Positions 46,924-53,861 of a stretch of 64,000 nt of DNA are shown in pieces. Position numbers and translations under genes: made by a program. The DNA lies in assembly GCA_029762535.1 (NCBI GenBank), contig JARVGK010000015.1, forward strand, positions 1 through 64,000. The letters are read 5' to 3'. Every line of letters starts with the position of its first letter. The stretch's first letter is position 1. This stretch comes from Thermoplasmatota archaeon (GTDB lineage Archaea > Thermoplasmatota > Penumbrarchaeia > Penumbrarchaeales > Penumbrarchaeaceae). The notes beneath the pieces were generated by a model, which saw nothing but the letters and a program-made list of their open reading frames with translations, did not search any database and had not been told where the DNA came from.

Positions 46924-47054
46924 ACGCACTGAGGTCCAACTCAAGTTCCTTTTCCCCCGAAGTGATTTTACCGGATAGTATTATATCCTTTATCGAAGAA
47001 TACAGAAACACTGATCAGATCCGCATAAAGGAGTGAACCACTGGAGTGTTCAAG

Positions 47055-48047
47055 ATGTCCATAACGAAGATAGAAAGGCTCAGAAAGGAGATGGATACAG
47101 CGATCTCGACCGAGGATTTCCAGCTGGCGTTCCAGGTCGTGAACGATATGCTGGACATAGATCCCGAGAACGCTCAATTCTGGAACTCGAAGGGTGTTAT
47201 TCTGGCAAAACTCAACAGGATAGAGGAGGCCCTGGAATCATTCGATCGTGGACTGCTGCTTGATCAGAACGAACCCAGGATATGGTATTCCAAGGGATGT
47301 GTCCTCATGGAATCGGAAGAGTTCAGGCTCGCTCTGGCATGCTTCTACAAATCACTTGACCTTGATCCAGCTTATACGAAAGCGAAAGATAGATTCATAA
47401 GGTGCCTGGATGAATGGGTCGAATCGGGTGGGGAACGAGGAAACGAGCCATCAAGTATAGGTCAGGACCATCAAGATACATACGAGGAAGATCTGGATGA
47501 GTCCGACATGGAGTGGTCGGAGGAGAAAAGGGTTCTGATAGATGATGATGAGGAAGAGGAGGGGATCCGATCGGTTCCAAGGTCTCAGGAGATAATGAAA
47601 CAGAGGGAAATAAAGGGCACTTTTCTTGATGATGATCTGTTCAGCGATGAGAACAAGGAAGAAACCAAGGACGCATCATGGGAGGAGAGTGAGGAGGATA
47701 GTGGCGAGGAGGAGTGGTCGGAGGAAGAGATGGAAGGGTGGGATGAAGAGGATGGTTCCTTAGAAAATGAAAAAGACATTTTAGAAGATGACGATGCATC
47801 ACAGGACGATGAAGACGATGAGGATGACGATGCCGGGGAAGAATGGGTAGAGGAGGAGCTGGAGGGTTGGGATGGGGAGGATGAGCCATCCGATGATGGA
47901 TCGGACATCGGACCTAATGAGGAGATCCGAGATATCAAGAAGACGATCACGTGCAAATGTGGAGATGATATCCCGATATTCAGCGATGAGAGGCCTTACA
48001 GGTTCGAATGCCCTTCATGTGGAAGGACAGGTACGCTGAAGAAGTGA
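47055..48047 (+). CDS. TPR protein with acidic linker and C-terminal zinc ribbon
   Basis: 330 residues. Residues about 10-110 hold about three TPR units ('AQFWNSKGVILAKLNRIEEALESFDRGLLL' style). Residues about 130-290 are dominated by Asp and Glu, with Trp-containing repeats ('EEWSEEE...GWDEED', 'EEWVEEE...GWDGED'). The end 'TCKCGDDIPIFSDERPYRFECPSCGR' is a zinc ribbon. A protein-interaction adaptor is likely. The acidic part probably is unstructured. ATG 47055 has GGAGTG upstream; GTG 47046 is a possible earlier start. Confidence 0.75.
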   Translation: MSITKIERLRKEMDTAISTEDFQLAFQVVNDMLDIDPENAQFWNSKGVILAKLNRIEEALESFDRGLLLDQNEPRIWYSKGCVLMESEEFRLALACFYKSLDLDPAYTKAKDRFIRCLDEWVESGGERGNEPSSIGQDHQDTYEEDLDESDMEWSEEKRVLIDDDEEEEGIRSVPRSQEIMKQREIKGTFLDDDLFSDENKEETKDASWEESEEDSGEEEWSEEEMEGWDEEDGSLENEKDILEDDDASQDDEDDEDDDAGEEWVEEELEGWDGEDEPSDDGSDIGPNEEIRDIKKTITCKCGDDIPIFSDERPYRFECPSCGRTGTLKK

Positions 48048-48077: not shown

Positions 48078-49085
48078 TCATCTATTCTTTCCATACCAAT
48101 GTAGCAGCAATTCAATTGGGGTGGTGGCGAGAACCAGAAGTATCTCCATATCCTCTTCATTGTCCTCGGTGAGGGTAACTCCCCAGATCAATCTTGCATT
48201 GTCCTTTATCCGGGATCTGAGGAATTCGGTTGCTTCGAGTGAATCTTCCAGAGTAAGGTCCTTATGCGATATGACATGTATCATCGCCTTTCTAACGGTC
48301 GAAAGATCGATATCGCAAAGCGGATTTCCCAGCGCATTCCTTATGGAGGACCTGGACTTGTATCCGCCTGGTTGAGCGACCCCCCAGGTCATGATGAGAG
48401 CGGTGCCTCCTTTTGAGGTTATTAGGAGATCGGCAAGGTCCAGATTAACTATTCCGGATCGAAAGACCAGATCGCCGAGATGTCTTATCAGATGGGCCAG
48501 CTCGAGATACCTCCTTTCCCTGTACATGGTCGGAGAAAGACACACGACTCCATGGAAATGCCCACCAAGATCGAGTATCATGCGGTTCATATCCTCAAGT
48601 GCGCCAATATTCCTGAAAGTGCCTCTCTTGATCACCATGCACAGAGAGAAAGCACCCTTGGAAATACAAGATGAAGATAAAAAACTCACAGGCATTATGC
48701 TTTCCTTCGAGTCGCTATCGACGAAGCAGATGACCAGATCGCCCTCATAGATATGCTCAAGGGCATCGTTCACAAAAACTATCTCATGGTCCTTCAAGAG
48801 AACGGGTGATATCATGTTCCTTAATTGGCCTGAGGTGTGCGAACCACGGTTATCGGATATGGTGTTATTACCGATAAGGCCCTTATCACATTCGGATGAT
48901 GTCGTTTCCATACAATCCGACCAATCCTCTTCAGGCAGGCTTAGGGATATTGGGGTGCTCGGAGCATTAGAGCTCACGGCGACTATGCGGTGAGGTGAAC
49001 CTTCGAGCATTGTAGATATCTCGCCTATTAGGCGATCGGTCAAGGGGTTGAAAGATACGAGCACCATCCTTCTCAAAAGAAACAC
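48078..49085 (-). CDS. Degenerate FtsZ/tubulin-like protein without the T4 GTP-binding loop
   Basis: 335 residues. The C-terminal half aligns by eye with FtsZ: 'GIVNLDLADLL' retains the N-x-D-x-x-D T7 loop, 'GGTALIMTWGVAQPGG...ALGNPLCDIDLSTVRKAMIHVISHKDLTLEDSLEATEFL' follows the FtsZ order, and 'DNARLIWGVTLTED' matches the end of the C-terminal domain. In the N-terminal half the GTP-binding T4 loop (normally GGGTGTG) is replaced by residues like SDSKES, and no T1 loop is seen. It is the last gene of a ychF-polB-ftsZ-like run and starts (GTG) at the base next to the polB stop. Confidence 0.65.
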   Translation of the reverse strand: MFLLRRMVLVSFNPLTDRLIGEISTMLEGSPHRIVAVSSNAPSTPISLSLPEEDWSDCMETTSSECDKGLIGNNTISDNRGSHTSGQLRNMISPVLLKDHEIVFVNDALEHIYEGDLVICFVDSDSKESIMPVSFLSSSCISKGAFSLCMVIKRGTFRNIGALEDMNRMILDLGGHFHGVVCLSPTMYRERRYLELAHLIRHLGDLVFRSGIVNLDLADLLITSKGGTALIMTWGVAQPGGYKSRSSIRNALGNPLCDIDLSTVRKAMIHVISHKDLTLEDSLEATEFLRSRIKDNARLIWGVTLTEDNEEDMEILLVLATTPIELLLHWYGKNR

Positions 49086-51545
49086 CTACATCCATCTATC
49101 CAAAGTGGCGGTCATTTCTCCGGATGTTCTCTCATCCTTTTCCATTTTATTCTTGGTAACTTGATCCTTCGAACTTGTATCTGCGGTATCGTAACCATCG
49201 AACAAAGATGATTGGGATGAACCGGTTATGAGCCCTCTCTGATCCACGCCGAAAACCTCGGTAACCCTCGCAAGTGTGGATGCAAGTCTCTCGGAATAAT
49301 ATAGATAATCGGGTATATCAACGAACTCTCTCCCATCTATGTATGGTTCGACGATCTGCGGTGAGGCTCTTCCATCAACCACTACCCACGATACCTTCAT
49401 CCCCGGAACTATCTCAATACCCAGATCCCTGGCCTTTCTCAAGGCCTGAACGTTTGACATCGAATCGGGATTCTTGTATGCCTCCTCGATCCGATCCTCC
49501 TCCACTTCCTGGACTGAGCGGGATATGACAAGAGATGAGGTCTCGACATCCCCAGACCTGCATCTTCTGATGACCTCTCTGGCATAGGATAACCCCTCTT
49601 TGATATTACCGTCGAGTATCATCTTGAAGAGATCGCTCAAGGATGTGGATTGCAGATCGAACGCATCGGTCCTTCTCATCTCGTAACCTCTGACGATCAT
49701 ATCTTCCGAGGGATAGACGGTCTTACCGACATATCTCTTCTTCTTTCCATGCGTGAAGAAAGAGGAGAACACCTTCTCGAACTCGAGCATGGAATATTCC
49801 CTTGAATGCTTCGAAGAGAGGTCTTTGCCGAAGGATACGGCCCCGTCGATGTCCTCGTAAGGAGACTTGATGAAGACCGAATCCGTGTCCGAATAGATGA
49901 CATCGAGCCCTTCGTCAGATAATGATGAGATCAACTTCAATATGGAATCCCTGGCGTATGCCGTGATGGATGCTCCTATGGCTCTATTCGTGAACCTGTA
50001 GAAATATGAGGCGAAAACTCCATAGAAGGAATTCATCAACACCTTCAACGCCTCCTGCAGACCGTTGTAATAATCCCTTTCGAAGGAAGATAGGGACCCT
50101 GACATCCTTGTCTTCGCATCCTGTCTATCGTTCATCAGGCCCTGGAGTATCCTTGGTATCAATCCCCTATATTTTTTTGAAGAAAGGAAATGCACCCCCT
50201 CTATTATGGGACTCGATCCATCAGAAGCACTATCGGTCAAAGTGGTGAAACAGATATTATGTTCGATCATAAGCGATGGGTACATCGAGCGGAAATCCAA
50301 AACGATGACCCATTTGTATAGGCCGGGTTCCATTGAATGAACGTAAGCCCCTTCGATCTTGTCCGTTTTCGCCTCCTTTCTCGTAAGCGGTATACCGATA
50401 TCCTCCCTGTCCGCTTTTCTGATGAGTATGGAATCTATCAAGACGCTGGTGGTCCCGGTCATGATCTCAAGCAGGGGAAGCATGGAAACGTATGATAGTG
50501 CCATGGCCCTCTTCACGCTTTGAGTCCTATCAAGTATCCTCAATGCTAGTTCGGCATCCTTCTTGCAGTATGCTATGACCTCGTCCTTTCTATCCTGCCA
50601 CTCTTCTTCGATCCTCTGGGTATCTATCTCATCCTTGCCCTCTCCAAGTACCAACTGAGAGACTGCCTCGAGCGTCTCCTTTTTTGGCCTGAAAGCTTTC
50701 TTCGCCTCCCTCCAAGCATCAACGACTATCCTTCCCTTGATCTTCCAGGTCCTATAGCCCACCTTTTCAATATCCGAGCCATCCCTTCCCATTATCATAG
50801 TGCCGGGACCATTTGTCTTTGCGCGTTTTTTGATATGAGGTATGTCATATCCATCGATATTGTAACCGGTTATAATATCCGGGTCCTGCTCGAGGACGAT
50901 CTTGGATAGGTCATCGATGAGCCCTAACTCACGTTCGGCCAGATCGGGGACATCCTGTGATGATGCGACTATCGAGTTCGAGATCGGCCCTTCTTCCATA
51001 TCCGGAAGCCACCCAACCGAATATCCGACCATATAGAGTTCGCCTGTCCTTATGGAGTTCTCGATATCAAAAGAAAGGACCTTTAGCTTGATCGGAAAAG
51101 GAACAACAGTGTCGATCCCCTTTATCATCATGACCGCATCGGTGTGATATCTGCCATCTGATATCATCTCCCCCTCCACTTCCACGTAACTACCGAGGTC
51201 AAGATCATAGTAGAACCTGTTAACGAAAGGTATGTCGGCGGCAAGGATCCTGAAACCCTCTTCCGACCATCTCTTTCTGTATGAGGGGACGTCATATGGG
51301 TATTTCACCACAACCTTTAGGCATTCATTCATTCGACCGTCCACCATGAGGTCCCTCTTTTCGGTATCGATGACAAGGGGGTCGTTTCCCAGCTCTTCGA
51401 ACACTCTTTGATCCGGTGCGACGATGTAGAAATATGGAGAGAAATCCTCGTAAAGGCATGTGAGTGACCTGCCGTCCTCAGAGCGGCCGAAAAGCTCTAT
51501 CACGACACCGTCGTCACACCTTCTGTAATGGCCGCTTATGACCAT
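49086..51545 (-). CDS. polB: Family B DNA polymerase (archaeal PolB)
   Basis: About 819 residues with all expected motifs: exonuclease I 'SFDIEN', II 'GYNIDGYDIPHIK', III 'YCKKDAEL'; polymerase A 'DFRSMYPSLMIEHN', B 'KVLMNSFYGVF', C 'VIYSDTDSVFI' and 'KKKRYVGKT'. A proofreading replicative or repair polymerase. No intein. The frame starts at TTG 51581 (overlapping the ychF stop by 4 nt); ATG 51545 gives the conventional N-terminus and is used, though the TTG remains possible. It is between ychF and the FtsZ-like gene. Confidence 0.93.
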   Translation of the reverse strand: MVISGHYRRCDDGVVIELFGRSEDGRSLTCLYEDFSPYFYIVAPDQRVFEELGNDPLVIDTEKRDLMVDGRMNECLKVVVKYPYDVPSYRKRWSEEGFRILAADIPFVNRFYYDLDLGSYVEVEGEMISDGRYHTDAVMMIKGIDTVVPFPIKLKVLSFDIENSIRTGELYMVGYSVGWLPDMEEGPISNSIVASSQDVPDLAERELGLIDDLSKIVLEQDPDIITGYNIDGYDIPHIKKRAKTNGPGTMIMGRDGSDIEKVGYRTWKIKGRIVVDAWREAKKAFRPKKETLEAVSQLVLGEGKDEIDTQRIEEEWQDRKDEVIAYCKKDAELALRILDRTQSVKRAMALSYVSMLPLLEIMTGTTSVLIDSILIRKADREDIGIPLTRKEAKTDKIEGAYVHSMEPGLYKWVIVLDFRSMYPSLMIEHNICFTTLTDSASDGSSPIIEGVHFLSSKKYRGLIPRILQGLMNDRQDAKTRMSGSLSSFERDYYNGLQEALKVLMNSFYGVFASYFYRFTNRAIGASITAYARDSILKLISSLSDEGLDVIYSDTDSVFIKSPYEDIDGAVSFGKDLSSKHSREYSMLEFEKVFSSFFTHGKKKRYVGKTVYPSEDMIVRGYEMRRTDAFDLQSTSLSDLFKMILDGNIKEGLSYAREVIRRCRSGDVETSSLVISRSVQEVEEDRIEEAYKNPDSMSNVQALRKARDLGIEIVPGMKVSWVVVDGRASPQIVEPYIDGREFVDIPDYLYYSERLASTLARVTEVFGVDQRGLITGSSQSSLFDGYDTADTSSKDQVTKNKMEKDERTSGEMTATLDRWM

Positions 51546-51577
51546 AATTCTGACCTTCAACTCTCTCAACCCCTGGA

Positions 51578-52771
51578 TCAAGCGTTGGAATGGATCTTGA
51601 TCACGTCTCCGTCATTTATCTCATGATCAGAAGATATGGCCCTGTGTGTCCTGCAATCTATTGCCTTGATGAAATGTTCGCCAAGGTCCGTATGGACCCT
51701 GTAAGCAACATCCCTGGCGGTGGAACCCTGCCTCATAAGATGCACGTCCGGGAGTACTCTGCCGTCCTTATCCGTATACTTGTTCTCATCCTCGACAGGA
51801 TATATCGTTATCTGGTCCAGTAGATCATAGGCAGCTTTCTCCAGAACGGTCAGCACGTTCGTCGATCCGAACCTATCGAGTATCTCCTCGATCCTCCCAA
51901 GCGCTTTGGTCTGAGCAAGGTTCAATCTTGAAGCATCGATCATTTTGAAATCGGGATCACCGGGACGATACTCGATAAGATCCGCATTGGAAGCCCTCCT
52001 CAATGCAAGTTCGGCCTCGGCACACGTGGGTATCACATCGTGGTCCTTGACCTTGGAGACGAACTCCTTGATCATCTCATCCGTGGCCGCATCAGCTTTA
52101 TTCGCAGCGATTATCATTGGTTTGGAGTGCTTCCTCAATGAGGATGCGAACTCAAGCATCTGATCATCGGTCCATTTGGTGGGTTTTATTTGCAGGTCGA
52201 GTTTTTGAAGCGCATCGGTGATATGATGAAGTGTGATCCCCAGTCCGGTCAATTTTTCGTGAAGAAGCCTCTCGACCTTCTCGTGCTGGGATTCGCATTG
52301 TTTCGATATCCTATGCCAGTCCTTGTTTATGATGCCCAGGAACCAGTGATCTATCTCGTTCGTTAGGAAGTCCACGTCATCGAAGGGATCGTGACCGCAT
52401 AATTCCACCGGATTCCCTTCGAGGTCGGTGGATCCGGAAACATCGACAACATGGACGAGGGCATGGGCCTGCCTGAGATCGTCCAGGAACTGATTTCCAA
52501 GTCCTTTGCCGCAGTGGGCGTCGGGTACCAACCCGGCAACGTCAAGCAATTCGACAGGAATGTATCTTACACCATCTATGCACTTGGCATTCCTGGGAGA
52601 GCAGGTCACGTTCAGGTCAAGATGAGGGCATCTACCTCGTATGAAACCCATCCCGTGATTGGCCTTGATCGTCGTGAAAGGATAGTTCGCGATCTCGGCC
52701 CCTGCGAGGGTCGAGGCCTCGTAAAGGGTCGATTTTCCAACATTGGGCTTTCCTACGAGACCTATTTCCAA
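51578..52771 (-). CDS. ychF: YchF/Obg-like GTPase with TGS domain
   Basis: 397 residues of the archaeal YchF branch. 'EIGLVGKPNVGKSTLYEAST' is the P-loop, 'LLDVAGL' the G3 segment, 'NKAD' the G4 motif, and a TGS domain occupies the last 80 residues or so ('RQGSTARDVAYRVHTDLGEHFIKAID'). These GTPases/ATPases associate with ribosomes and stress responses. The frame opens with GTG 52780, but TTG 52771 has GGTGAT five bases upstream and gives the family N-terminus, so TTG is preferred. Confidence 0.92.
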   Translation of the reverse strand: MEIGLVGKPNVGKSTLYEASTLAGAEIANYPFTTIKANHGMGFIRGRCPHLDLNVTCSPRNAKCIDGVRYIPVELLDVAGLVPDAHCGKGLGNQFLDDLRQAHALVHVVDVSGSTDLEGNPVELCGHDPFDDVDFLTNEIDHWFLGIINKDWHRISKQCESQHEKVERLLHEKLTGLGITLHHITDALQKLDLQIKPTKWTDDQMLEFASSLRKHSKPMIIAANKADAATDEMIKEFVSKVKDHDVIPTCAEAELALRRASNADLIEYRPGDPDFKMIDASRLNLAQTKALGRIEEILDRFGSTNVLTVLEKAAYDLLDQITIYPVEDENKYTDKDGRVLPDVHLMRQGSTARDVAYRVHTDLGEHFIKAIDCRTHRAISSDHEINDGDVIKIHSNA

Positions 52772-52820
52772 ACCGATCACCCCCTGGAAAAGGGAAGGGC
52801 TAGGGAATGGGGTATTCTTT

Positions 52821-53768
52821 CTATATAGTTTCTCCCGAGGCGAATAACCTGAAGCTATTGCTGTCCAGATGTACGAGACCCATGATCCCTCCTTTTATGA
52901 TCGAGAACGGCGATTCGAACTCGAGGGCCAGGTCCACTCGACCGTCTCCCCGGAGTGAAGCTTGCTTCACCTCACAGGGAGAGAACTGTAATCCGTGATG
53001 CGCATGGAACCTCATACCCGATTCTATATTCTCCTTCCATAGGGGTGATACCCTCATCCTGGTCGTCAGGATAGAGCCTGAAATGAAATGGGATCTTTCA
53101 TCGGTGAGTATCGTTCCTCTTTTCAATTGTTCGGGGTCGATGTTCTTCAAGGCGAGTCCCACCCGAGAACCCATAGGGGCCTCTTTCACATCCTTGTCAT
53201 GGATCTGTATGGACCTAATTTGGGTGTCGATGCCGCTCTGGAGGACTATGACCTCCTGATGCTTCATCACTGTCCCGGACATGACGAAACCCAAAACCAC
53301 GCATCCGATCCCCTTCACGTTGAATGATTGATCAACCACTACGTTCAAAGGACCTTCAGAGGATTTAATGGAAGGATCGAACAATCTTTCCCTCATTATC
53401 GCAGGATCGGATTCGAAGGGAGGATAATCCCTCACAACGTTGCCATTGAGTACCTTTTTCAGCAGATCCCTGTCGATCCCATTGCCGACACTTATGAAAC
53501 CGTTCTTCTTCCCCATGAGGTCGAGGGATATCAGAACTTCTGCCGTGTTCCTGTTGAGATCGTTAATGAAAAGGTAGACCTCTTCACCCAGATAGATAGA
53601 GAAGAGGAGAGACCAGATCTTTTCTGGGAACTTGGAAGGTTGGATTATCGAAACGATGGCATCATCCCTCTTAAGAGCATAAGTGGAAAAGGACGTATCA
53701 GAACCCAACTTGCCGATGGAGGATGACCATTCATGAGGGCCTATGGCACACACTATCCGATGGGACAT
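52821..53768 (-). CDS. EF-Tu/SelB domain-2 protein without a functional G domain
   Basis: 315 residues. Residues about 145-245 match translation factor domain II ('VVVDQSFNVKGIGCVVLGFVMSGTVMKHQEVIVL', 'QIRSIQIHDKDVKEAPMGSRVGLALKNIDPEQLKRGTIL'), closest in style to SelB. The N-terminal part has the length of a G domain but lacks the GxxxxGK P-loop and NKxD motifs, so GTP binding is not expected. Domain-2 paralogues without G domains are known in archaea, with unclear role. ATG 53768 has a TATA-like TATTTTA 23-29 nt upstream (leaderless); ATG 53786 is an in-frame alternative. Confidence 0.7.
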   Translation of the reverse strand: MSHRIVCAIGPHEWSSSIGKLGSDTSFSTYALKRDDAIVSIIQPSKFPEKIWSLLFSIYLGEEVYLFINDLNRNTAEVLISLDLMGKKNGFISVGNGIDRDLLKKVLNGNVVRDYPPFESDPAIMRERLFDPSIKSSEGPLNVVVDQSFNVKGIGCVVLGFVMSGTVMKHQEVIVLQSGIDTQIRSIQIHDKDVKEAPMGSRVGLALKNIDPEQLKRGTILTDERSHFISGSILTTRMRVSPLWKENIESGMRFHAHHGLQFSPCEVKQASLRGDGRVDLALEFESPFSIIKGGIMGLVHLDSNSFRLFASGETI

Positions 53769-53861
53769 AACGGTGCAGATATCCATCAGATAAAATACTT
53801 GGTATCCCTCGAACCCATGGACCTCGGGATCTCAACAGATGCGGACTCTGTTCCTGTATGT

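Follow-up and report, generated by a model that had tools for sequence, protein, structure and literature searches.

An FtsZ1-derived protein family of Thermoplasmatota keeps the T7 half of the active site and has lost the nucleotide pocket

FtsZ filaments need both faces of each subunit. In SaFtsZ, the residues N208, D210 and D213 of the T7 loop work on the nucleotide bound by the adjacent subunit, and a filament probably grows as its exposed T7 face receives the GTP-bearing top face of each incoming monomer (PMC8936486). Proteins that deviate from this plan have been described. The FtsZ of Nitrosopumilus maritimus has lost its GTP-binding motif, and its T7 loop is reported to be absent too (PMC3684127). 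FtsZl1, a divergent protein of archaea and bacteria whose definition includes a coiled coil, keeps GGGTG[ST]G, and its T6-H7 region and FtsZ C-terminal domain are unrecognisable (PMC2875224). Among septins, a cytoskeletal filament family, some subunits are reported to have degenerated to pseudoGTPases inside hetero-oligomers (PMC10731463).

The window analysed here, a stretch of 64,000 nucleotides from a Thermoplasmatota archaeon, encodes a protein with a different combination of losses. A preliminary description of this DNA had read the protein as FtsZ-like, with a T7 loop and no GTP pocket, possibly capping or regulating a canonical FtsZ filament. The gene lies at the end of a block of genes on one strand:

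48078-49085, minus strand: T7-only FtsZ-like gene, 335 codons from GTG, stop-free
49086-51581, minus strand: DNA polymerase B (polB), directly upstream of the T7-only gene
51578-52780, minus strand: YchF/YGR210-type GTPase (ychF), overlapping the polB start by 4 bases, in an order kept in relatives
52821-53786, minus strand: EF-Tu domain-2 protein, SelB-like, without a GTPase domain, heading the conserved block

The T7-only gene opens on the base right after the polB stop codon. Candidate start codons are GTG at codon 1, TTG at codon 4, where the orthologues begin, and ATG at codon 7. Convergent to it, and syntenic in relatives including G009, is a gene for a TPR protein (47046-48047, plus strand) that has a long acidic linker and, at its C-terminus, a zinc ribbon of four cysteines. 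Within the T7-only gene, the following parts can be located:

48429-48446, minus strand: T7 loop N214-L-D216-L-A-D219, modelled between H7 and H8
48126-48392, minus strand: FtsZ_C domain match (Pfam), residues 232-320
49026-49055, minus strand: residues 11-20, corresponding to T1, without its glycine loop
48684-48719, minus strand: residues 123-134, which correspond to T4 but no longer read GGGTG[TS]G
48822-48962, minus strand: predicted disordered stretch, residues 42-88 (pLDDT <50), at the site of the FtsZ S2-H2-T3 region
48087-48119, minus strand: C-terminal helix, residues 323-333, with P323 and Y331 invariant in 9/9 family members

The C-terminal half is FtsZ-like, as had been proposed. 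Using HMMER, it matches Pfam FtsZ_C (E 2.2e-12) and TIGR00065 (E 3e-12, residues 196-321), the latter with a score of 46.5 bits, below the ftsZ equivalog cut-off of 295.2 bits. The best solved relative, found with phmmer against the PDB, is M. jannaschii FtsZ1 (E 5.5e-18, residues 197-320), and IVNLDLAD of the T7-only protein aligns column for column with LINVDFAD of MjFtsZ1. No match to PF00091, the tubulin/FtsZ GTPase domain, was obtained with HMMER even at E 1, and a motif scan found neither T1 (GxGGxGxN) nor T4 (GGGTG[TS]G); both loops are gone. The family members scanned likewise show FtsZ_C without PF00091; the FtsZ_C match in G009 is weak. The protein ends at the C-terminal helix with the sequence HWYGKNR and has no FtsZ C-terminal peptide, which in the canonical paralogues is FGIDFIR or FGVQFIR at the end.

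An AlphaFold model, whose input included nine family members, has a pLDDT of 78.9 and a pTM of 0.79. It shows the FtsZ topology of S1, H1, long H7, T7 loop, H8 and C-terminal domain, with NLDLAD placed between the helices formed by residues 193-208 (H7) and 217-224 (H8). The tubulin-like fold spans residues 1-323 and aligns with KpFtsZ over 272 residues (Z 22.9, rmsd 4.2) and with Odinarchaeota FtsZ1 (Z 22.1). The Z of 22.7 to CetZ 3zid is about level with that to FtsZ; the sequence matches are to FtsZ only. These values are from VIA-align, because the Foldseek superpositions had high rmsd. Structure prediction shows the T7-only protein adopting a complete FtsZ fold; with residues 42-88 disordered, the whole scaffold would be present and its nucleotide side eroded.

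In contrast to the nucleotide side, the T7 half of the active site is conserved. N214, D216 and D219 are identical in 9/9 family members, each of which is 20-45% identical to the window protein. Of the 250 alignment columns in which every one of the nine members has a residue, ten are invariant, these three among them, and the chance of all three T7 positions falling in invariant columns is 4.7e-5 (hypergeometric). Mean entropy is 0.88 bits for the T7 loop versus 1.59 for the T1 stretch and 1.90 for the T4 stretch; at such divergence, matching the N-terminal half to FtsZ residue by residue is uncertain. In two close pairs, dN/dS is 0.06 and 0.19, and dN in the half from H7 through the C-terminal domain is below that in the N-terminal half (0.020 versus 0.074; 0.122 versus 0.380). 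The N/D/D triad is missing in two other degenerate FtsZ-like paralogues of the same genome, and the fold alone can therefore do without it. By these comparisons selection acts on the T7 face, which is intact; the invariance of the triad over nine sequences is a strong signal, yet not proof of catalysis. High divergence and pocket loss are what one would expect of a paralogue decaying towards loss in which T7 was left by chance. We regard this as highly improbable, given that nine genomes from four families keep the frame intact, that dN/dS is low and that the triad's invariance is improbable by chance. A pseudogene is ruled out by dN/dS and the conserved reading frames. Alignment, structure model and conservation together also rule out NLDLAD as a coincidental match, and the loop is a genuine T7 loop.

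Of the 12 genomes of the class that were examined, 9 encode the T7-only protein with intact frames; they belong to four families, a spread that the preliminary description had missed. No T7-only protein was found at E 1e-41 in 378 other Thermoplasmatota genomes. This threshold fits close members; all nine matches are themselves rows of the model, and more distant cases elsewhere could escape it. A single-protein query of genome contigs gave no match, and phages gave none. An alignment restricted to the family retrieved from genome contigs Candidatus Thermoplasmatota MAGs, from cold seep and Zodletone spring as read from their isolate names, and one haloarchaeal look-alike. Divergent members have very long branches in a full-length tree, and we therefore used a tree of the region from H7 through the C-terminal domain (the H7-CTD tree). 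Here all sampled members form one clade (99/99) inside FtsZ1, and the branching order within it follows genome kinship. The terminal helix with invariant P323 and Y331 is common to the family and absent from the FtsZ of the same genomes. One clade, kinship order and a common helix point to a single origin within FtsZ1, in the ancestor of the class, followed by vertical inheritance.

The position beside polB and ychF, which had been called unexpected, is conserved, though only in part of this range. The T7-only gene adjoins polB in six genomes of two families, five of the window's own family and G009 of a second. In the own family, the order EF-Tu domain-2 protein, ychF, polB, T7-only gene is kept wherever contigs reach, and the place of the EF-Tu domain-2 gene (52821-53786, minus strand) upstream of ychF is conserved. 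Six of the eight genomes of this family have the T7-only gene. In the other two (G005, G006) no copy was seen, but each contig breaks off within polB shortly before the expected site, so a copy may lie beyond the contig end. In the two most distant families (G010, G011) the gene sits in unrelated neighbourhoods, away from polB, a point that the preliminary description had also missed. The neighbours are replication and translation genes rather than division genes; this, and the other contexts in G010 and G011, speak against the end-cap reading given below. As an alternative, the FtsZ fold may be reused outside filaments, in a binding or scaffold protein that joins, for example, replication or translation factors to division, with T7 as part of a surface. 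The site after polB kept in six genomes, with ychF upstream where contigs reach, would fit such a protein, as would the family-specific C-terminal helix with its two invariant residues and the disordered insert 42-88. However, the invariant part is the exact catalytic triad, and the two most distant families keep the triad without the polB link. We consider this reuse a minor possibility.

The window genome (G000) encodes other members of the superfamily. Two canonical FtsZ, both FtsZ1-like, carry T1, T4, T7 and the C-terminal peptide, and SepF is present. The two further degenerate paralogues mentioned above had escaped the preliminary description:

Contig C6 of the window genome, 22876-23907, minus strand (L003:955-1989): FtsZ2-derived paralogue with a largely kept GTP pocket and a broken T7
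Contig C7 of the window genome, 2810-3628 (L227:1471-2406): fifth paralogue, with orthologues L220 and L222-L226

The C6 paralogue (344 residues) has an AlphaFold model with Z 32.6 to FtsZ and, in the full-length tree, falls with FtsZ2-like proteins. Its type is present in 8/8 genomes of the window's family. C6-type proteins keep GKGT[GA]SG; their T7 reads R-[GS]-[IL]-[TS]-ISDL and, of the residues equivalent to SaFtsZ N208, D210 and D213, keeps only the last. They end in RW[DE]IPM[VI]R, a tail resembling the C-terminal peptide that the T7-only protein does not have. In three genomes looked at, a small protein is encoded beside the C6 paralogue. Read by eye it is a ribbon-helix-helix protein, which Pfam does not confirm; the two genes recall the arrangement of the cdrS-ftsZ2 locus (PMC7439475). 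The C7 paralogue (318 residues) is very divergent, with a weak pocket, a remnant glycine loop and an unrecognisable T7. One archaeal family thus carries five tubulin-superfamily paralogues in which the active site is lost by degrees.

The complementary losses suggest a second arrangement, an obligate pair in which the T7-only protein and the C6 paralogue would form a composite GTPase, a heteropolymer alternating like alpha- and beta-tubulin. Both degenerate paralogues co-occur in the family (C6-type in 8/8 genomes; T7-only in 6/8, with the G005 and G006 contigs ending inside polB). The C6-type retains its glycine loop and has lost the first two residues of N/D/D, the Pfam matches are complementary (PF00091 only versus FtsZ_C only), and only the C6-type has a C-terminal peptide-like tail. 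A comparable pair occurs in a second family of the class: in G010, the T7-only protein L042 is accompanied by an FtsZ-like protein (L063:4837-6180) with T1 and T4 intact and the T7 loop deleted, and Pfam finds only tubulin-type GTPase families in L063 and only FtsZ_C in L042. Against this arrangement, the T7-only protein of G011 occurs alongside FtsZ2-like proteins with intact T7, and no C6-type protein was found in G008 or G009, whose genomes are incomplete. The two pocket-bearing proteins are also placed differently in the H7-CTD tree, the C6-type clade near FtsZ2 and L063 near FtsZ1. Furthermore, FtsZ paralogues with a recognisable pocket and without the T7 motif are frequent in other Thermoplasmatota families (L202-L207, L214, L215), none of which yielded a T7-only protein; loss of T7 therefore needs no T7-only partner. 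We judge the obligate pair unlikely. Its wider form, that the class splits the FtsZ GTPase into pocket-bearing proteins with a broken T7 and T7-bearing proteins with no pocket, which would function beside ordinary FtsZ solely when combined in an asymmetric pair or mixed filament, seems to us quite unlikely. If true, such a split GTPase would be a prokaryotic parallel to the asymmetry of the tubulin heterodimer. A general rule of co-loss, by which a paralogue without T7 occurs only beside a T7-only protein, is ruled out with the other Thermoplasmatota paralogues as controls.

We give about an even chance to the reading that we favour, in which the T7-only protein is an FtsZ1-derived pseudo-GTPase that uses its T7 face to dock where a GTP-bound FtsZ exposes its nucleotide, completes hydrolysis and ends the filament. 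With T1, T4 and the T2/T3 region gone, it probably cannot hold GTP in the normal way. Given the polarity of FtsZ faces (PMC8936486), a T7-only subunit would bind only an exposed nucleotide face, at the minus end or on a free monomer. The likeliest partner would be FtsZ1a or FtsZ1b in its GTP-bound form. The T7 face would dock on the top face of this subunit, which bears the nucleotide, and supply the N/D/D triad to hydrolyse the GTP of the partner. Further subunits could not add on its own top face, which would be without nucleotide. The outcome would be a cap at the nucleotide-face (minus) end, or a GAP-like factor that sequesters monomers, and in either case a tuning of filament length or turnover, not ring building. 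The protein alone would not be tethered via SepF, because the C-terminal peptide is absent. The two canonical FtsZ1, sought and found elsewhere in the genome, and SepF are possible partners, as is the C6 paralogue. The N-terminal half may have gained another ligand, since it is conserved enough to fold. Thus the fold, the T7 loop and the loss of the pocket stand as first described, and the capping or regulation of FtsZ is still a proposal. The T7-only family is real and conserved; its role we infer from sequences and a predicted structure. If the pseudo-GTPase reading is true, the family provides FtsZ with an end cap or GTPase activator that is built in and genetically encoded, and a standing question, the contribution of each filament end and each half-site to FtsZ dynamics, becomes testable with natural proteins.

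Comparison with known systems separates the T7-only family from each of them. With canonical archaeal FtsZ1 (MjFtsZ1, PDB 1FSZ/1W58/2VAP) it has the fold, H7, the T7 triad and FtsZ_C in common, and it differs by having no T1 or T4 loops, no PF00091 match and no C-terminal FtsZ peptide. Pocket loss is shared with the FtsZ of Nitrosopumilus maritimus (PMC3684127), whereas T7 is intact only in the T7-only family. FtsZl1 is likewise divergent and FtsZ-like, and keeps the opposite half (Makarova and Koonin, 2010; PMC2875224). Degenerate filament subunits are a feature in common with the pseudo-GTPase septins (PMC10731463).

The haloarchaeal look-alike matches the family in pattern:

L133:5530-6546, Halomicroarcula sp. 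SYNS111: FtsZ-like protein with FtsZ_C and without PF00091, T1 or T4

As in the T7-only family, its pocket is gone and its T7 (GVINLDLADI) is intact. Unlike that family, it has a C-terminal zinc ribbon in place of the helix, and it lies outside the family clade in the H7-CTD tree, which suggests at least two origins of the T7-only state. No wider haloarchaeal family of this type was found at E 1e-20 in 57 Haloarculaceae, and among the plasmid matches listed for the haloarchaeal protein as query there were only partial ones of at most about 35% identity, several annotated ftsZ.

What is new here is an FtsZ derivative that keeps T7 alone; degenerate FtsZ-like proteins are already known. To our knowledge, no natural subunit with a catalytic T7 face alone has been reported, and the open-access papers searched hold no description of an FtsZ or FtsZ family of this kind. 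The fold and interfaces of septins are unrelated to those of FtsZ. Alpha/beta-tubulin offers a likeness in mechanism, in that the catalytic T7 residue of one subunit works on the nucleotide held by its neighbour and the active sites are asymmetric; the difference is that both tubulins still bind GTP.
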